Shown: piece by piece, positions 849 through 47,048 of the stretch
Position numbering within the stretch: position 1 is the first letter of the stretch
Layout: each line of letters begins with the position of its first letter
Notes under the pieces: generated by a model
Told to the model about the DNA's origin: nothing
Database searches by the model: none
What the model saw: the letters and a program-made list of their open reading frames with translations, nothing else
Virus record (IMG/VR): IMGVR_UViG_3300036828_000332
Span: 1 to 52,037 of that record
DNA from: a virus
Strand: one strand, 5' to 3'
DNA: 52,037 nt
Made by a program: the position numbers and the translations under genes

Positions 849-1043
849 ATGCTGTTCCCCGCGTTCCTGATTCAGCTCGTTATCGTGCTCGTCGTGGTCG
901 GGCTGGCCCTCTGGATCATCAGCATGATCCCCATGGACCCGGTGATCCTCAGAATGATCCGTATCGTCCTCATCGTGGGCGTGTGCCTCTGGCTGCTGTA
1001 CCTGCTGAGTGGCTTCCTGTCTGTTGCGCCCCTGCGCCGATAG
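849..1043 (+). CDS. small membrane protein, Thivi_2564-like
   Basis: This 64-residue, very hydrophobic protein has two predicted membrane helices (about residues 5-26 and 36-57) separated by a short turn containing Ile-Pro-Met-Asp. That pattern, helix-IPMD-helix ending in LWLL, matches my memory of the Thivi_2564 family of small bacterial membrane proteins, whose function is unknown. It is the only plus-strand gene in the first 16 kb and is convergent with the zinc protein gene at 1057. The ribosome site is weak. It could be a lysogenic-conversion gene or a holin-like protein, but nothing here decides that. Confidence 0.6.
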   Translation: MLFPAFLIQLVIVLVVVGLALWIISMIPMDPVILRMIRIVLIVGVCLWLLYLLSGFLSVAPLRR

Positions 1044-1056
1044 CGGCCCGGGATCA

Positions 1057-1233
1057 TCACTCCTGCGCCCTCCCCGTTCCGTAATCCCCCGTGCCCTCGC
1101 AGTTCTCGCAAGCGCTGAATGTGCGCACGCCTACATCGCAGTCACAGCCGCGTTCCGGTTCACCGCAGATATCGCAGACCAGCCCGGTGCCGTCGCACAG
1201 GGAGCACTTCAATTGTCGTTTGGGTTCGCTCAT
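1057..1233 (-). CDS. DnaJ-type zinc-finger protein, 58 aa
   Basis: The protein contains a CxxCDGTG motif, a CDICG motif, a CDC motif and a final CxxCEGTG, so two half-sites of the DnaJ cysteine-rich (CxxCxGxG) type are present. It should bind one or two zinc ions. Without a J domain, a chaperone role cannot be claimed. I chose ATG at 1233, which overlaps the upstream stop as ATGA; an upstream in-frame start would lie inside the preceding gene. Confidence 0.75.
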   Translation of the reverse strand: MSEPKRQLKCSLCDGTGLVCDICGEPERGCDCDVGVRTFSACENCEGTGDYGTGRAQE

Positions 1234-1439
1234 AGCTTCTCCGCCCAAGACTCCCCCGCAATCCGCCTTAGTCTCCTCGCCTCTTTCGCTTGCTTAGTGA
1301 GCAGCCGAGCCAGTGCCAATGCCTGCGCCGGAGAAAAGACAATATGCCCCATGCCGTTTTCGTCGGGCTTCATGTCGGGGTGATTGATAACGATTTCGTT
1401 CTCATCGTTCAGACCTACTTCGAGATAGCCCCCGATCAT
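1230..1439 (-). CDS. hypothetical protein, 69 aa
   Basis: This small acidic/basic protein has a beta-like N-terminal half (YLEVGLNDENEIVI) and a helical C-terminal half (SPAQALALARLLTKQAKEARRL). It looks like the short conserved phage proteins that carry an FSPAQA-type helix, but no function is known to me. It is coupled by ATGA overlaps to both its neighbours, so it belongs to the same operon as the 310-aa protein upstream and the zinc protein downstream. Confidence 0.7.
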   Translation of the reverse strand: MIGGYLEVGLNDENEIVINHPDMKPDENGMGHIVFSPAQALALARLLTKQAKEARRLRRIAGESWAEKL

Positions 1440-2368
1440 ACCTTGATCCTCACTTCCCGCGGCGCCGCTTCCTTGCCCTTGGTCCCGCGAATCACCGAGG
1501 GTTGCCAGACGAGCTGCTTGTACTTGCCGAACAACCCGCGGCCCTCACGGTAGTCTTTGAAGTGCCCCCGGCAGATGTGCATGGCCTTGGCGATCCCGTT
1601 GGTAGTGCCAGCGCCGCCCTGCGTGCGCAAGATCTGCTTTAACGGCTCGATCTCCAGCGTATGAAACGGACGCGGCCACACGCCTGTTCGCGCGTGGTAC
1701 TTTTTAGCCAATGGTCCCGGCGTCTCCTGGTCGACCACCTTCACGTTCCTGCAATGCAGGAATGACACCGCCAGGAGCGCCGGATGCAAAAGCGTCATAT
1801 GGTCCATGAGGGCTTCATTCCACTGCGGATCCGCGTAGCACTGCATGTGCGGCGTCCCGACCAGCGCGCCTTCCTTGTCGACCAGAAGGAACCACGTGCC
1901 TGCCGGTCCCTCGATCTCCTTGCCGCGAACATCGTAATCGGTGAACATCTCCGCGCATAAGATCCACTTGGCGTTTTCCGGAATCTCTCCGTCCGCTTTG
2001 CATTGCGACGCCTCCGCTGCCATCCACAGAACACCCATGCGCGCGTGTCGCCCCAGCCCGTCCGAAACACTGGTATCGCCGTACTTGTCGCTGTGAATGG
2101 TCTGCGGCATCTTGTGTTCGGTCCAGAAGACCGCATAAGGCGGTGCAAGATTCGGGAAGTCGCGCGTCAGATCCCAATACTCCTGGCCCGTGCCGCGAAA
2201 ATAGTAATCCGCCACGTTGTCAATCAGCAGGACGGGAACCTCGTCCTTGAGAACGATCTCCATCATGCGCCGCGCATGGCGCGACCATTTCTCCTCGTAG
2301 CGCCGGTCTACCCACCACGGCATCTGCAGTCGGCCGGCAGCCCGGATGTCGTCAATCAAGCGCGGCAT
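1436..2368 (-). CDS. hypothetical phage protein, 310 aa
   Basis: I do not recognise a domain with confidence. The C-terminal 90 residues contain the pattern H-x-CRGHFKDY-x5-LFGKYK-x8-RGT; I recall a related HFK-Y-LFGK pattern in uncharacterised actinobacterial and phage proteins, but not a function. The N-terminal part is rich in aromatic and charged residues, including a DNVADYYF segment. Its start overlaps the end of the upstream gene by 17 bp, and its stop is coupled to the next gene. It is the largest unknown early gene. Confidence 0.75.
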   Translation of the reverse strand: MPRLIDDIRAAGRLQMPWWVDRRYEEKWSRHARRMMEIVLKDEVPVLLIDNVADYYFRGTGQEYWDLTRDFPNLAPPYAVFWTEHKMPQTIHSDKYGDTSVSDGLGRHARMGVLWMAAEASQCKADGEIPENAKWILCAEMFTDYDVRGKEIEGPAGTWFLLVDKEGALVGTPHMQCYADPQWNEALMDHMTLLHPALLAVSFLHCRNVKVVDQETPGPLAKKYHARTGVWPRPFHTLEIEPLKQILRTQGGAGTTNGIAKAMHICRGHFKDYREGRGLFGKYKQLVWQPSVIRGTKGKEAAPREVRIKV

Positions 2369-2699
2369 CGGCTACCTCCAGGCGTGGGCGCTTGCTACGT
2401 GCCTCAAACTTGCACACCACTTTTTCGTGCTGCGCTTCCGCCTCTATCCAGGTGGCGCAGCGGTAATACTCGACTGCGTTGTCCTTCCAAAAGACCGCGG
2501 TCTCGAATATGCGCATCCTATATGCGCGCATGAAGTTGTGATCCAATCCCAGGAACAGTGTCGAGATGAAGTACTTTCCGACATTGTGCTCGTTGACGAT
2601 CCGGCCCTTATGCCCCGCGCGGAAACTCCACTCGGCCCACTTCAGAAAATCGGGCTCCTCGACTACGCTCTGGCCGACCAGGATGTAAAGCCGCATCAT
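2352..2699 (-). CDS. conserved phage hypothetical protein, 115 aa
   Basis: The sequence has the layout of a small protein common in phages of high-GC bacteria: an N-terminal Trp-rich stretch (LKWAEWSFRA), a central strand STLFLGLDHNF, a FETAVFW segment and a final WIEAEAQHE helix. I recall this family (core FLGLDH) as conserved in many siphoviruses, with no assigned function. It is the second gene of the operon that begins at the 2948-3033 promoter region and overlaps the next gene. Confidence 0.8.
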   Translation of the reverse strand: MMRLYILVGQSVVEEPDFLKWAEWSFRAGHKGRIVNEHNVGKYFISTLFLGLDHNFMRAYRMRIFETAVFWKDNAVEYYRCATWIEAEAQHEKVVCKFEARSKRPRLEVADAALD

Positions 2700-2702
2700 G
2701 GC

Positions 2703-2939
2703 TCAAATGACCTCCAGTTCCTCGCGCACGCTGAACCGGCAGAGCGTGATCTTCTTGCCCGGATTCTTAATGATGTCTCGCGCCAACTCCAGTAGCGAAT
2801 CCAGATGCGCTCTGTTCGCACAGATCATCGGCAGAGAATACTCTCCGCTAGAGAACGCAGCAATTCGCTCGCCCTCAGGCTCCTGCGCGACGACCGCGAA
2901 TAGCTCATGAATGCGGAGACGATTCTTCTTGTCGAACAT
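2703..2939 (-). CDS. hypothetical protein, 78 aa
   Basis: This is the first gene of a five-gene minus-strand operon. It is a mixed alpha/beta protein with a helix (CANRAHLDSLLELARDII) in the middle; no family is recognised. The start at 2939 sits 10-11 nt downstream of an AAAGGACT ribosome-binding sequence, preceded by the GACAAACAAAC leader that recurs at other transcription starts in this window. Confidence 0.75.
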   Translation of the reverse strand: MFDKKNRLRIHELFAVVAQEPEGERIAAFSSGEYSLPMICANRAHLDSLLELARDIIKNPGKKITLCRFSVREELEVI

Positions 2940-2947
2940 TTATGTGT

Positions 2948-3033
2948 AGTCCTTTCGTTTGTTTGTCTGTCAATGTAATTCGATGCATCATTTTACTGCA
3001 ATCCTACTGCTTTTAAGCAGGATCGGAATAATA
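2948..3033 (-). promoter_or_regulatory. promoter, 5' hairpin and leader of the left operon
   Basis: Read on the minus strand, a TATTAT -10 box (3033-3028) is followed after 7 nt by an inverted repeat CTGCTT-AA-AAGCAG (3020-3007), which would be the 5' end of the transcript. Further on come GACAAACAAAC (near 2967-2957) and AAAGGACT, then the first gene. No good -35 box is visible. The layout matches the modules at 5300-5414, 8822-8876, 48417-48491 and 51295-51371. Confidence 0.5.
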
Positions 3034-3049
3034 CCTCAGTGTCCTAAAC
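3034..3049. repeat. 16-bp direct repeat, copy 1
   Basis: CCTCAGTGTCCTAAAC here and CCTTAGTGTCCTAAAC at 3808-3823 differ at one base. They lie at the two ends of the methyltransferase gene: this copy covers its stop codon, the other ends at its start codon. Such boundary repeats suggest that the gene was gained or exchanged as a cassette. Confidence 0.8.
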
Positions 3050-3808
3050 CAGCGCTGGCGTGAGGTCTAATACTCCCTGGCGAAGGCGGTTCGCCGCGAT
3101 CTCGCAGTAACGTTCGTCGACGTCACAGCCGACCGCTCGAAGGCCGTGGCGCTTGGCGACGACTAAATCCGTTCCGCTGCCGAGGAAGGGCGAAAATAAA
3201 CTGCCGTGCGGTGGGCCGCTATATTCGCAAAGCTGGCTTACAACGGCCTCGGGCTTCTGCGTGGGATGTTCCGCATAACCGTGGCAGTTGGGAGCCCGAA
3301 TAATTGAACGCTGCAACCGTGGACCTCCATCCTCAGAGACATAGGCCATTGCGCCGATATTGCCAGTGTGCGGAGGCCTCGTCTTTCGTCGGGTGATCCG
3401 CGCCGTTGCATCGAGTGTTTTGACGGGATTCTTGTAAACCTGCCCCCATTCGCCCAAATAAAACTGCGCACAGAGTTCATGTACGCGCTTAAAACGGTCA
3501 GAATGGAAGCTGGAACCGTTCTGTTTCTCCCATACAATCTCCTGCGCGAAACTCCAACCTTCAAAATCCGCGGCGTGGCCGAAGAACATGCGGAAACTTC
3601 CGAAGACCCACATGGAACCGCAGGGCGAAAGGGCTGTAAGAATCAGACTCGGCCAACCTCGACACCAGATATCCCAGGCGAGGGACGTATCGCCGTAAGG
3701 GGGGTCCGCGATTACTAGATCGACCGACCCAGCCTCGAGCGAGATTACGACCTCGCGGAAGTCGGCATGATAGATAGCGAGGCCCGACTCTTCAAAGTAT
3801 GGCTTCAC
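3044..3808 (-). CDS. DNA methyltransferase, DPPY type (N6-adenine or N4-cytosine)
   Basis: This 254-aa enzyme transfers a methyl group from S-adenosylmethionine to an exocyclic amino group in DNA. The catalytic motif ADPPYGD is at residues 34-40, HPTQKP at 181-186 and the SAM-binding PFLGSGT at 207-213; the catalytic motif precedes the SAM motif, the order of beta-class enzymes. No endonuclease gene is next to it, so it probably acts as a solitary phage methyltransferase that protects phage DNA or marks it. It starts with GTG at 3808, right after the stop of the previous gene. A 16-bp direct repeat flanks it. The target sequence cannot be read from the protein. Confidence 0.9.
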   Translation of the reverse strand: MKPYFEESGLAIYHADFREVVISLEAGSVDLVIADPPYGDTSLAWDIWCRGWPSLILTALSPCGSMWVFGSFRMFFGHAADFEGWSFAQEIVWEKQNGSSFHSDRFKRVHELCAQFYLGEWGQVYKNPVKTLDATARITRRKTRPPHTGNIGAMAYVSEDGGPRLQRSIIRAPNCHGYAEHPTQKPEAVVSQLCEYSGPPHGSLFSPFLGSGTDLVVAKRHGLRAVGCDVDERYCEIAANRLRQGVLDLTPALV

Positions 3809-3823
3809 CTTAGTGTCCTAAAC
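3808..3823. repeat. 16-bp direct repeat, copy 2
   Basis: This is the second copy, CCTTAGTGTCCTAAAC, lying at the junction between the upstream 125-aa protein gene and the methyltransferase start; 15 of 16 bases match copy 1 at 3034-3049. Confidence 0.8.
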
Positions 3824-4187
3824 TCGCCCCGATGGCATCTTTGGCACACTGACAGCGCCACGCGGTCGAATTGCCTGCATAATCGACGCCGATAATCCAG
3901 CCGGGAACATCCTTGCAAAATGGACACTTCCGCGCGGCTGCCAGTAATGGCGCGGTGTTCGACTGCTCCGGTGTCTTGGTCGGATGGAAGTAGCGGTAAA
4001 TGTGCGATGGCGTCGGCGCTGTCGCTTCGTCGAATAGCCACGACGTCGTGAACACACTTGCTTTGTCGAGATTCGTCGCTGTCATCATTGCGTCGATCAG
4101 CGGATCGACTCCGTCTTCGTCCTTGGGGAATCCGGGCAGACCGGAGAAACGTTTCACGAGCTTCTTGGCTTCAGATCGAGAGATCAT
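3810..4187 (-). CDS. hypothetical zinc-ribbon-like protein, 125 aa
   Basis: The C-terminal third contains CPFC and, about 25 residues later, CQC, a likely zinc-binding pair. The N-terminal 80 residues are helical, without known motifs. ATG at 4187 overlaps the stop of the replication-initiator-like gene as ATGA, so the two are translated together. This position, directly behind the initiator, resembles that of helicase loaders or accessory replication proteins in other phages, but nothing in the sequence shows such a role. Confidence 0.75.
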   Translation of the reverse strand: MISRSEAKKLVKRFSGLPGFPKDEDGVDPLIDAMMTATNLDKASVFTTSWLFDEATAPTPSHIYRYFHPTKTPEQSNTAPLLAAARKCPFCKDVPGWIIGVDYAGNSTAWRCQCAKDAIGASLGH

Positions 4188-5086
4188 ACTCGTCCCTCTC
4201 TTGCGTCGCGTTCTTCGATCCTTGCCCACATACGGGCTGATCGTTCGCCCGCCGACTCAAACGCCCGCGGTGCCGGCTTCCGGATCACCGGCGCTACCAT
4301 CCAGTCCCGATCCTCCAGCCAGCGCCAGAGTTGCGGAATGAACTTACCCGCCTCCAGGGTGTTCCAGTACTCAATCCACTGCGCGTGCCGGATCTCGATG
4401 GTTTTGGCACATCGCGCCGCCGTGTCCGAACCGTCCTGCAGAATGGCATCCAGCTTCACCAGCGCCTTGACCGGCAGCCCCGGCTGCGGATGCACCTTCA
4501 GGAGCGTTTCGCAGAGCTTCAGCGTGAAAGGCGAGCGCAGCGAGAAGCGTTGGCCCTGGAAGATTTGCACAGCAACAGACGGGGGCGCCGCCGCCGCATG
4601 GTGTACGCTCGGCGGCGGCGACCCCGCCTCTCTTCCAGATAAGTAGGTTCTATAAGTAGGTTCAGTAATAGATGGGGCGGGTTCTGATTGGACAAACTGG
4701 TCGCTTCTGATTGGACAAGATTGTCCGATCACGTTGCCGTCCCGATTGAACTTACGCGCGGACTTTTCCACTACTGTGGATATTTTTTTGCACAGCAGGA
4801 CGCCCCACTGATCGCGCGCAGCGATTACGTATTGGCAGGTGCGCTGACATCGCTCGACAGTGATCAATCGCCATTTCCGGAGTTCGGCCAGCGCGCGCTG
4901 CACCGTCCGATAGCACACCCCTAGATCAGCGGCCAATCGGCTGATACGCGGGTTACATTGTCCGGTTGTCTTGTTCCTGTAATCGTCAAGTAAGATCAGG
5001 ACGCGCTGTGCCCAGTTCGATAGATCACGGTTTCCAGCCAGGAATTTTGGCAGGATCAAAGATGGTTGAGCTATACAACTGCCCAT
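4184..5086 (-). CDS. winged-helix replication-initiator-like protein
   Basis: This 300-aa protein starts with a helix-turn-helix region (about residues 20-85): ISRLAADLGVCYRTVQRALAELRKWRLI is the typical recognition helix plus wing of phage and plasmid replication initiators. The middle (about 120-175) is low-complexity and Pro/Ala/Ser-rich, probably a flexible linker, and the C-terminal 120 residues are helical with several Trp (WIEYWNTLEAGKFIP, LWRWLEDRDW). I infer a lambda O-like role in binding the origin, since no other replication protein is visible. It could also be a transcription regulator. It is the first gene after the 5300-5414 promoter. Confidence 0.7.
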   Translation of the reverse strand: MGSCIAQPSLILPKFLAGNRDLSNWAQRVLILLDDYRNKTTGQCNPRISRLAADLGVCYRTVQRALAELRKWRLITVERCQRTCQYVIAARDQWGVLLCKKISTVVEKSARKFNRDGNVIGQSCPIRSDQFVQSEPAPSITEPTYRTYLSGREAGSPPPSVHHAAAAPPSVAVQIFQGQRFSLRSPFTLKLCETLLKVHPQPGLPVKALVKLDAILQDGSDTAARCAKTIEIRHAQWIEYWNTLEAGKFIPQLWRWLEDRDWMVAPVIRKPAPRAFESAGERSARMWARIEERDAREGRV

Positions 5087-5387
5087 AGGGATATCTCCTC
5101 AGCGGACTCGCTGCAGAGCAGTTCGCGGTGTGAAGTTGGGGAAGAATCCGGTCCCGCCGGTGGGTTGATTGGCGAAACCAGGAAGAGATGGGCTATTCTA
5201 AACATGACATGCGCTCCTAGCGCTCCTATTCGGATCGTCTGTAAGTCCTGGTTTGGAAGGTTCCTCAACGGTTCCCCCGGATTAGTCCTTGCAAGTCCTT
5301 TGCGGATCGTTTGGTCGTTTGTTTGTTTTGTCAGCGAGGGCCGCGTGAGATGGCTTAGTCCTCCATCTCTTTACGCGGCCTTTGTTT
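5087..5387. other. leader region upstream of the replication gene
   Basis: No convincing gene lies in these 301 bases. A minus-strand frame of 44 codons (ATG near 5205) overlaps the start of the replication gene and looks accidental. The part from 5300 leftwards contains two GGACT-like purine motifs and the CAAACAAAC leader described separately. A long untranslated leader of about 290 nt in front of an initiator gene leaves room for antisense or structural regulation, but none is evident. Confidence 0.5.
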
Positions 5388-41848: not shown

Positions 41849-44800
41849 TTACTCCAGAAAACTGTCCGTGTTGGCCCCGTGTGACCGGAACTCCGGCATG
41901 GGGGTTTGGCCCTTCGAACCCAGGCCGGTTTTCCCGCCCACAGCGGCACCCGCCCGCAGAGCGGCCTCGATATCACCCCAACGCTTATCGGTAAAGACCT
42001 CCAGGCGCAGCACCGCCGCCGCCGCGCGGGCATAGATCCGGCAGTTACCCGCGACAAATACTTGCCCGTTCCGCCTGCAGATCAATGTGCCGTTCGGCAC
42101 GGTGGCGCAATAAACCTTTCCATCATAGGCAACGGACTTTCCGATAAACCCCCGCTGCCCATTGCCGCCGCCGTCGAGGGAGGCTTTTTTCGTGTGGGCA
42201 TTCTCATGAACGTGATACTGATCTTTGGTGTTATCGCCAGAACGCCCGCGAATACTGTAGGCAGCGGCTTTGCGGATATGGATCCGCGGTGCGCAGCCAA
42301 GTTTGATAAAGAGTTCCTGGTAATCATCGGCCAAGTCTTTGCAGATGGTGGCAATCGCCCGGCACCCGTTATTCTGATTCCATCCATCCCCGGCGATGGC
42401 TGCATCTATGAAGGCCGAGATTACGTCCATACCGGACTTCTTGATCCACAGCGGAACTCGCCGCGCTTCTTGAAGGCGACCCCATTGAATAACCTCATTG
42501 TGAAGTTGTTTCGAAGTGCACGTGAATTTGTGGACACCTTCGTTCCAATTAAAGCGCCAAGGCAAGCGATCGAGCAGTTCCGCGATCACCTCGACATTCG
42601 CAGTCTTGGTCTGGGTAATCGATACGAGGCGCCGGTGCGAGCCTTCATAGTGATTGGTAATCGCCGAACCTTCAGTTATCCACCAGCCGTAGAAACTCGC
42701 CAGATCGACGGCCTTTACGTTCCGCGACGGCTCGATCTCCAGCCCGGAATCATCCTTCGAACTGGCCGGTATTGAGATGCAACACGGCCCAGTTGCGGAC
42801 CATCGTCCCGTCAGCTTGATTTGATGACGTTGCGTCAGGTCCTTGGCGAGCGTAATAGTCGGCGTTGCGGCAATGACGGCGTTCCGGTTCGGCAGGTAAG
42901 TCACCATGCGGTGATTCGGCGTTACCAAAATGTCGAGACGCCTGCCCGTAAGGTAAATCATTTCGCCTGAATGGTTTCGGCTGATGAGATCTGATGGCTT
43001 TTGAAACTCGATTGCATCGCTTTCAAGTTCCACAGTTGCTAATTTCTGGTTGGACACATTCGCAAACGGAGACCAGCCAGCATCGGTAAGCACTTCGGTT
43101 TCGCCATCGAAACAGTCGAGCGCTTCGTTGCGGTCGCGGCGCTTTTCCCATTTTGTGGTCGTGCGCCCAGCTAAGGTGTGCGTGATCAATTGCTCGGCGC
43201 ATAGTTGGTCGAAGAATTCCTTACCGTAGCCGGGAAAGTGGCAGTAGCCCGCCGGCCAAATCTCTCCGGCCGCGAGGTCCGGGACATTCAGGCGCAACGC
43301 GCGGTAGAGTTCCTCTTTGCCGATGGAGGTATTCACCGGCCACAGGCGCACGCCGCCGCGCACGATGCGGCCTCCTGCCGTGACATCCATGAACGACGGT
43401 GCGCCCACAAAGGCCGAGATGTGGGAGTGGGTTTCGCCCTTTACCGCCATCACGCTTTGCGATCCCATGCGCCTTACCCATTCGTAGACGCGCATGGTGT
43501 TGAACCCGGAATCGACGGCCAGCTTCTTAATGCGCAGCGCGCCGCCGTAAAAACTCGGGAATTCCTCATCTAGCACTTCCGCCAGCTTGGCCCACACCTC
43601 GGGCTGGTTGGTGTTGCCGTCGAACACGCGGTAATCCACGGACCAGGATTCGCGGTTGCGGCCCCAGGCAACCACCTCACATTCGATGCGGTTGACCTGC
43701 ACATCGACCCCGGCTGTGAGCACGAGCCCACCCTCGGGCACCTCGCCCATCGCATAGAGTTCGCGCCGCTCGTAGAGACGGTCTACATCCGGCACTTCGC
43801 CCTGATCGGCCCATGGCACACCGAGGACGGTGTTGTAGAAGGCCTGTAACTTCTCGGGAGACACCATGCTCTTATCCCGCATCCGCATGATCTGGGTCCA
43901 GGAGAGCCAGCCGACCGGCGAGTAATAGCTGGAGAGGTGGAAGCCCTTGGTAACGCCATCGCCCAAGCCGAGAGAACGCCACTCGCCCGCGGCTAACATG
44001 ATGGTCTTCTCGTGGTCGAAGATCTCCTTTTCGCAGTCCTGGCAGCGATAGGCCGCGCGGTGCGGCATCGCTGCGGACCATTGCAATTGCTCCGGCAGCA
44101 AGGTGATGAAGACGCCACAGCGCGGGCACGGCACGAAGTAGTAGCACTGATCCGACTGGCTGAAGAACGTTTCAATGCGGCTACGGCCTGCAATCGTGGG
44201 TGTCGACGCGATGAGGATTTTCTTGCGCCGGAAATTCGAGGTGCGCGCTATGGCCAGATCGCAGGGCTCGCCCTCACGATCCACGTTCGCCGGATAGGCG
44301 TCCACCTCATCGAGAAACAGATAGCGTGCCGCCATGGAACGCAGGCCCTTGGCGCTGTTGGCTCCCGCCAGCACCAGAATGCCGCCCAGGAACTCTTTGG
44401 CCAGAATGGTATTGCCGGAGTCGCGCTCCTTCGGAGAACGCACCAAGGTGCTCAGAATCGGACAGTCTTCGATCAAGGGACCGATGCGCTGCTTCGAGTT
44501 GCGCTTGGCCATGGTTTCGGTTGGTTGCACCACCAGCATGGGACCGGGCGCTAAATGGATCACATAGCCCATCCAGTTGATCCCGGCTTCGGTGGCGCCA
44601 ACCTGCGAGCCTTTCATGAACACCACCCGTTCGCAGGGCGATTCCGGCATCAGCGCGTCCATGATCTCGCGCAGGTAGGGCGTGCGGCTGGTGCGCCACA
44701 TACCGGGCTCCGGCGATGAGCGCGTCGTCAGAACCCGGTACTGATCCGCCCATTCGCTGATGGCCAGCTTCGGGTCGGGCCGCGCACCCATGCGGCAGGC

Positions 44801-44872
44801 TTTGACTGTAGCTTCATAGGCGTTGGCGAGACCAGGGAGGGAAGCGTGCAGCGTGTTCCCTGGCGTGATCAT
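41849..44872 (-). CDS. large terminase subunit, GpA family, with intein, 1007 aa
   Basis: This is the DNA-packaging ATPase and nuclease. The ATPase has FMKGSQVGATEAG (Walker A, about 85-97) and LFLDEVDAY (Walker B, 185-193); a C-x2-C pair pattern lies near 245-275 (CPRCG, CQDC). The nuclease domain starts near 390 (GVDVQVNRIECEVVAWG). At residue 587 an intein of 357 residues interrupts NEALD/CRIYARAA, a conserved nuclease motif. After splicing the terminase is 650 aa, near lambda A (641). Its start overlaps the TerS stop by ATGA. Confidence 0.95.
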   Translation of the reverse strand: MITPGNTLHASLPGLANAYEATVKACRMGARPDPKLAISEWADQYRVLTTRSSPEPGMWRTSRTPYLREIMDALMPESPCERVVFMKGSQVGATEAGINWMGYVIHLAPGPMLVVQPTETMAKRNSKQRIGPLIEDCPILSTLVRSPKERDSGNTILAKEFLGGILVLAGANSAKGLRSMAARYLFLDEVDAYPANVDREGEPCDLAIARTSNFRRKKILIASTPTIAGRSRIETFFSQSDQCYYFVPCPRCGVFITLLPEQLQWSAAMPHRAAYRCQDCEKEIFDHEKTIMLAAGEWRSLGLGDGVTKGFHLSSYYSPVGWLSWTQIMRMRDKSMVSPEKLQAFYNTVLGVPWADQGEVPDVDRLYERRELYAMGEVPEGGLVLTAGVDVQVNRIECEVVAWGRNRESWSVDYRVFDGNTNQPEVWAKLAEVLDEEFPSFYGGALRIKKLAVDSGFNTMRVYEWVRRMGSQSVMAVKGETHSHISAFVGAPSFMDVTAGGRIVRGGVRLWPVNTSIGKEELYRALRLNVPDLAAGEIWPAGYCHFPGYGKEFFDQLCAEQLITHTLAGRTTTKWEKRRDRNEALDCFDGETEVLTDAGWSPFANVSNQKLATVELESDAIEFQKPSDLISRNHSGEMIYLTGRRLDILVTPNHRMVTYLPNRNAVIAATPTITLAKDLTQRHQIKLTGRWSATGPCCISIPASSKDDSGLEIEPSRNVKAVDLASFYGWWITEGSAITNHYEGSHRRLVSITQTKTANVEVIAELLDRLPWRFNWNEGVHKFTCTSKQLHNEVIQWGRLQEARRVPLWIKKSGMDVISAFIDAAIAGDGWNQNNGCRAIATICKDLADDYQELFIKLGCAPRIHIRKAAAYSIRGRSGDNTKDQYHVHENAHTKKASLDGGGNGQRGFIGKSVAYDGKVYCATVPNGTLICRRNGQVFVAGNCRIYARAAAAVLRLEVFTDKRWGDIEAALRAGAAVGGKTGLGSKGQTPMPEFRSHGANTDSFLE
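42044..43114 (-). other. intein with LAGLIDADG-type endonuclease motifs in TerL
   Basis: Residues 587-943 of the terminase form a complete intein of 357 aa. Block A: CFDGETEVLTDAGW with Cys1. Block B: TPNH (intein 65-68). Two dodecapeptide motifs: LASFYGWWITEGS (138-150, Glu) and FIDAAIAGDGW (235-245, Asp), with spacing usual for DOD homing endonucleases. Blocks F and G: VYCATVPNG...QVFVAGN, followed by extein Cys. The penultimate residue is Gly instead of the common His. The spliced extein reads NEALD-CRIYA, as in intein-less GpA proteins. Confidence 0.95.
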
Positions 44873-46114: not shown

Positions 46115-46263
46115 ATCTCTATATCGTGCTAATGCGGTCCTGGGACGGCGGTTTTCGGGTCGAGGCTATTTTCGAAACCCAGGAGTTGGCGGAGAAGCGT
46201 GGCCGGGAATTGGGAAATGAATCCAAAGTAGTGATGCTAGAAGCGGTTCTGTTCAAGTTATGA
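46111..46263 (+). CDS. small protein coupled to Mom, 50 aa
   Basis: The protein (MNLYIVLMRSWDGGFRVEAI, then a helix QELAEKRGRELG, then a short strand) is defined by exact ATGA overlaps at both ends, linking the ParB-like and Mom-like genes. It lacks the Cys residues of Com, the Mu activator of mom translation, so it is not a Com homologue. It may be an accessory subunit of the modification system; function unknown. Confidence 0.75.
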   Translation: MNLYIVLMRSWDGGFRVEAIFETQELAEKRGRELGNESKVVMLEAVLFKL

Positions 46264-47048
46264 CCACAGCCAAGGATCTGCGCGTTGCCGTGATCGGATC
46301 CGCCGATGCCCACGCCTTCATGCGCAAGACGCACTATTCCCATAAGAGCGTACAGAATTCGCAACTACACCTCGGGGTCTTTCTCGGGACACGCCTCGAA
46401 GGCGCCATGCAATTCGGACCGCCGCTGGATCGCCGGAAGTTGATCACGCTGGTTCGCGATACGCCTTGGACCGGCTTCCTGGAATTGAACCGCATGGCGT
46501 TCACCGACAACCTGCCGCGCAATTCGGAAAGCCGCGCCATCGCGGTCGCCATGCGCCTGCTGAAGAAACACTTCCCGCAGATTCAGTGGATCGTCAGTTT
46601 TGCCGACGCCACGCAATGCGGGGATGGTACGATTTACCGCGCCTCGGGATTCGTGCTTACCGCGATCCGCGCGAACACCACCATCTGGGGAGGACCAGCC
46701 GGCGAGGTGATTACCAACATCGGCATCCGCACCAGCGGCCAAGCCATCCAGTCGTTTGCCCATGTGGGCGGCAAAGACGTGTACCGGGGCGGAGCCAGCA
46801 TGACGCACTTCCGCGCGGCGGGCTTCCGTCCGCTGAAAGGCTTCCAGCTTCGCTATCTCTATTTCCTTCACCCTACGGCCAGGGAACGGCTGACCGTGCC
46901 GGTGATACCATATTCGGCAATTCGCACGGCAGGCGCTACAATGGCTCGCGGTGTGCGTCCCAGCGTCGGAAGTATCCCGGTAGACACAGCCGCGTTCCCC
47001 GCGGAAGAGGGCGGTTCGACTCCGACCCCGACGCTCCAAGATCCATAG
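46260..47048 (+). CDS. Mom-like DNA adenine modification protein, 262 aa
   Basis: The sequence matches the layout of phage Mu Mom-like proteins with a GNAT-type fold: HYSHKSVQNSQLHLGVFLGTRLEGAMQFGPP (25-55), GFLELNRMAF (72-81), and WIVSFADATQCGDGTIYRASGFVLT (110-134), where the S-F-A-D and G-x-I-Y-x-A residues are typical. Mom converts adenine to N6-carbamoylmethyladenine and shields phage DNA from many restriction enzymes. The last 50 residues are Pro/Thr-rich and likely flexible. It ends an operon with the ParB-like and 50-aa genes. Confidence rests on remembered motifs. Confidence 0.75.
   Translation: MTTAKDLRVAVIGSADAHAFMRKTHYSHKSVQNSQLHLGVFLGTRLEGAMQFGPPLDRRKLITLVRDTPWTGFLELNRMAFTDNLPRNSESRAIAVAMRLLKKHFPQIQWIVSFADATQCGDGTIYRASGFVLTAIRANTTIWGGPAGEVITNIGIRTSGQAIQSFAHVGGKDVYRGGASMTHFRAAGFRPLKGFQLRYLYFLHPTARERLTVPVIPYSAIRTAGATMARGVRPSVGSIPVDTAAFPAEEGGSTPTPTLQDP

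Follow-up and report, generated by a model that had tools for sequence, protein, structure and literature searches.

Inteins of phage large terminases have been described in mycobacteriophages (TerL1-a to -e, TerL6-f and Pham3880-g; PMC5050341), where they carry endonucleases, occur sporadically and are all located in the ATPase domain of their hosts (Terminase_1, Terminase_6 or Pham3880 proteins). In the same survey several class 1 phage inteins had Gly, Lys or Ser in place of the penultimate histidine, and a histidine of block F was able to substitute for the penultimate one (2016 mycobacteriophage study, PMC5050341). In the Bethlehem RDF (gp51) intein, replacing the penultimate Gly by His turned complete splicing into splicing with a half-time of more than 5 hours (PMC5050341). 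The penultimate and block-F histidines are common but non-essential helpers on which most inteins draw for splicing. Other inteins lacking the penultimate histidine are known to splice, at least as recounted in PMC5050341 and for Chen et al. (2000) as cited in a review (PMC4031507); the review gives Asp, followed by Cys, as the commonest residue at position F:4, and His as the commonest at F:13.

The intein examined here resembles the mycobacteriophage TerL inteins in bearing an endonuclease, in its large terminase host and in its sporadic occurrence, but its host is a GpA terminase and its site the C-terminal nuclease motif. As is often the case for mycobacteriophage class 1 inteins, it has no penultimate histidine; the residue is Gly, as in the class 1 RDF intein of phage Bethlehem, although the likeness concerns the penultimate residue and the host protein is a different one. 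With TliVMA, PhoVMA, PI-SceI and PI-PkoII (PDB 7qsu, 7qst, 1vde and 2cw7) it shares the combination of a Hint domain and a two-motif LAGLIDADG endonuclease, whereas those inteins come from cellular hosts and are 12–17% identical to it in sequence.

The window, i.e. the whole stretch of 52,037 bases analysed (virus record IMGVR_UViG_3300036828_000332 of IMG/VR), encodes a terminase with both GpA_ATPase and GpA_nuclease domains, and thus of the GpA (lambda-type) family. The gene is set in a lambda-like packaging cluster, followed downstream by a gpW-like protein, a portal (Phage_portal_2), an S49 protease and a capsid protein E. A Mom family protein (PF25680, E 6.5e-51) is encoded next to the packaging genes, on the other strand (46260–47048, plus); in phage Mu, Mom serves DNA modification against restriction. 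A family scan with nine aligned inteins as the query gave 346 confirmed related stretches, and the top 80 of these were retained. At least 54 same-site inteins (the window included, and partly near-duplicates) are full-length and inserted directly between Asp and Cys; the conservation counts in the following list of features refer to these.

41849..44872, minus strand: GpA-type terminase large subunit precursor, 1007 aa, with the intein in frame
43979..44716, minus strand: GpA_ATPase domain (PF05876), residues 53–298, Pfam E 1e-89
43112..43948, minus strand: GpA_nuclease domain (PF20454), residues 309–587, upstream of the insertion, Pfam E 2e-78
43115..43129, minus strand: NEALD, the final five N-extein residues, a conserved nuclease motif corresponding to lambda gpA 585–589
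42044..43114, minus strand: class 1 intein with LAGLIDADG homing endonuclease, 357 aa, precursor residues 587–943
43112..43114, minus strand: Cys1, block A, the first splicing nucleophile (54 of the 54 same-site inteins listed)
42911..42922, minus strand: block B, TPNH, with Thr65 and His68 (each in 54 of the 54 listed)
42668..42712, minus strand: LAGLIDADG motif 1 (LASFYGWWITEG) with catalytic acid Glu148 (Glu in 40 of the 54 listed)
42380..42421, minus strand: LAGLIDADG motif 2 (ISAFIDAAIAGDGW) with catalytic acid Asp243 (Asp in 54 of the 54 listed), Pfam LAGLIDADG_3
42071..42118, minus strand: block F, KVYCATVPNGTLICRR, with Cys336 at F:4 (54 of the 54 listed) and Gly342
42044..42064, minus strand: block G, QVFVAGN, with penultimate Gly356 and Asn357 (each in 54 of the 54 listed)
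42041..42043, minus strand: Cys+1, the first C-extein residue; Cys is normal here in most intein-less GpA terminases
41849..42043, minus strand: C-extein, from CRIYA through the stop

The original prediction of a 357-residue intein between NEALD and CRIYA proved exact to the base, and its removal leaves a computed terminase of 650 aa. All of the splicing blocks it had claimed were found, with Cys1, the TxxH motif of block B (T65PNH68), blocks F and G, and a C-terminal N357 followed by Cys+1, as expected of class 1, and so were the two LAGLIDADG motifs with their acids E148 and D243. A Pfam match to LAGLIDADG_3 at precursor residues 816–868 (E 1e-5) was above the curated cut-off; the curated intein_Nterm model scored 16.4–18.6 bits against a cut-off of 24.5, so family scans by themselves are weak for calling the intein. 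The Hint fold was predicted in an AlphaFold2 model of the intein (mean pLDDT 85.9, pTM 0.87), for which a fold search returned the inteins TliVMA, PI-PkoII, PhoVMA and PI-SceI as top PDB matches, with E down to 2e-16. With 54 homologous inteins at one site and a predicted fold like that of crystallised inteins, the insert is not a chance resemblance. Judged from its sequence, 42044–43114 is a genuine and complete class 1 intein, an element of a known kind, which is very probably functional and mobile. Assignment to class 3 was rejected, as C1 is present, B:12 is Met70 rather than Trp and G:5 is Ala355 rather than Thr; the sole class 3 signature residue found was the Cys at F:4.

RNEALD or its neighbours show almost no variation among GpA terminases. 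Lambda gpA has RNEALDC at 584–590, so that E586 is 4 residues and D589 1 residue ahead of the splice point; D401 belongs to the first acidic motif of gpA. We take E586 and D401 to be the positions of lambda endonuclease-defective mutants. A profile search found no solved GpA chain in the PDB, and hhalign of the GpA profile against HK97 TerL gave no alignment; a catalytic role for E586 and D589 is therefore suggested by their position in lambda gpA and by the mutants. The predicted location in the GpA nuclease motif was borne out, and could be narrowed to the point where the conserved Asp that ends RNEALD meets the following Cys. Since the insertion falls within such a motif, we infer that the unspliced chain would be nuclease-inactive and is expected to be without cos cutting, and splicing would plausibly control packaging, as the site suggests. 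No published intein at the GpA nuclease site was found in the literature searched, although the search was limited and the site may have been described. The insertion site is under-described, unusual and widely re-invaded.

A scan of IMG/VR turned up intein-less terminases that can be aligned over their whole length and lack the insert, and 74 non-redundant alleles of this kind provide uninterrupted host homologues. The closest of them, L011, has 96.3% protein identity and 88.6% DNA identity to the window terminase; its sequence runs ...RNEALD CRIYARAAAA... without a scar at the join, which is the NEALD-CRIYA junction that had been predicted for intein-less homologues. The position equivalent to +1 is Cys in 64 of the 74 alleles, and Thr, Val, Ala or Leu in the rest; of the 10 close alleles that are non-redundant, 3 have Thr, Val or Ala instead. 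In close intein-less alleles with such a replacement (L012, L039, L016 and L017), the codon carries 2–3 base changes; possibly they are resistant to the intein, or the changes reflect simple drift.

In a tree of 88 N-extein sequences, the window was sister to the intein-less L011 (100% SH-aLRT), and it was the only same-site carrier within its clade of 10 rows, which suggests a recent arrival. Intein presence requires at least 5 changes across well-supported branches of the terminase tree, a count that does not separate gain from loss. Acquisition is favoured because the intein has a lower G+C content than its exteins (53.8% vs 61.8 and 66.2%; at third positions, 61.3 vs 78.5 and 75.4) and is related to the intein of L002. 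As to a co-conversion tract, no clear identity peak was seen beside the insertion when the window was compared with the empty alleles.

The same-site inteins were found in the contexts RNEALD/C and variants, with NHFLD/C in one distant host clade, and in GpA terminases as little as ~20% identical. Those from IMG/VR (most of L002–L009 and L047–L098) share the Asp/Cys site and identical splicing residues with the window intein and are 41–70% identical to it where comparable; unlike it, they reside in hosts whose terminases are 23–59% identical to that of the window, and some of their endonucleases are degenerate. In 494 of the 545 carrier pairs compared, intein identity exceeded terminase identity by over 5 percentage points, for example 67% against ~26% for L047 and L055, and 69.9% against 59.2% for the window and L002. 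Part of the loci entered the comparison through similarity of their inteins, and this raises intein identity against that of the hosts; with differences of 20–40 points, however, this bias is insufficient as an explanation by itself. Inteins thus more alike than their hosts indicate that the family moves horizontally.

Further inserts were observed elsewhere in GpA terminases. In L005 (ORF 1115–5299) and L006 (ORF 977–5311), a second insert of ~363 aa is present in the Walker A region besides the nuclease-site intein; it has no Cys1 and ends in PTHN/T, as in class 3 inteins, and L005 has two LAGLIDADG_3 stretches by Pfam. L144 has such an insert there too, and its residue at the nuclease +1 position is Val. 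Related inteins follow DVQDDRIE of the first acidic nuclease motif in L101 (1779–2996), and RNE in L077 (4001–5059; NE/CLDTYV), three residues upstream of the usual site. GpA terminases have thus been invaded at several conserved motifs.

On this evidence we hold with high confidence that the window carries a class 1 LAGLIDADG intein at RNEALD/C of its GpA terminase that splices without a helper histidine and spreads by homing. Cys1 would attack the N-terminal junction, the N-extein would be transferred to Cys+1, and Asn357 would cyclise without help from a penultimate or block-F histidine, leaving the 650-aa terminase. The cutting target of the endonuclease is very probably the RNEALDC-coding DNA of intein-less alleles, and homing would thereby spread the intein between co-infecting phages or prophages. 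The sequence shows the anatomy, the empty sites, the conserved catalytic residues, the predicted fold and the horizontal spread; that splicing and cutting actually take place is what we infer.

The penultimate Gly in place of His was confirmed (Gly356), but the slow splicing that had been expected from it finds no support here, since Gly is fixed in all 54 same-site inteins listed and the RDF intein is slower with His than with Gly (PMC5050341). For the same reason of conservation, Gly356 was rejected as a lesion or a sign of a degenerating intein. Gly342 stands at the block-F position that holds His in distant relatives (VPNH), and His was found there in 0 of the 54 listed. With both helper histidines missing, either another residue or no helper at all would have to serve Asn cyclisation; invariant candidates include His68, Cys336, Thr343, Arg347 and Arg348, and, with neither usual helper present, the splicing rate is not predictable from sequence. 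Perhaps the loss of both histidines makes splicing slow or conditional and times the nuclease activity of the terminase, a regulatory role that would also fit an insertion separating conserved nuclease-motif residues from the remaining domain. We consider this unlikely, as the Gly/Gly pattern is family-wide rather than peculiar to the window phage, and most close relatives have no intein at all.

Splicing together with homing also has to be weighed against persistence through splicing alone, with an endonuclease that is already dead. In favour of the latter, a related clade has lost one of the two acids and kept the splicing residues: Glu148 is replaced in 14 of the 54 same-site inteins listed, by Gly in 13 and by Asn in L008. 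These inteins (L062, L064–L071, L073–L075, L098 and L008) have hosts of the NHFLD/NHFFD type, and their endonuclease dN/dS is raised to 0.40 and 0.66, against ~0.10 for the splicing domain, in two pairs that overlap and rest on few changes. Where both acids are intact, informative pairs gave endonuclease values of ~0.16–0.25, similar to the splicing domain; between the window and L002 dS is saturated, so that selection on the window endonuclease is read from its residues and its relatives. As the window retains Glu148, Asp243 and an intact reading frame, and as the sole carrier among its close relatives looks like a recent arrival, a dead endonuclease is quite improbable, and the homing endonuclease is probably active. 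The claim that the intein may home is likewise upheld as probable by both acids, by purifying selection in relatives and by horizontal spread. That the insert is never spliced and the terminase works as the 1007-aa chain we regard as extremely improbable: Cys1, Thr65, His68, Asn357 and Cys+1 are invariant in the 54 inteins listed, the splicing domain is under purifying selection, and the insert splits a motif that is otherwise nearly invariant.

More broadly, we suggest, tentatively and with considerable doubt, that RNEALD/C of GpA terminases is the shared homing target of a large class 1 family that does without both helper histidines; Asn cyclisation would then need another general acid/base or be substrate-assisted. 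If so, close relatives that have lost Cys+1 would be intein-proof escape alleles, and the family-wide loss of both histidines would be a natural test of what Asn cyclisation requires. With a close empty allele at 88.6% nucleotide identity, homing and splicing are directly testable in this system, which may also be a source of efficient inteins. With this locus, the range of phage terminase inteins would reach beyond the ATPase domain into the DNA-cutting motif of lambda-type terminases.
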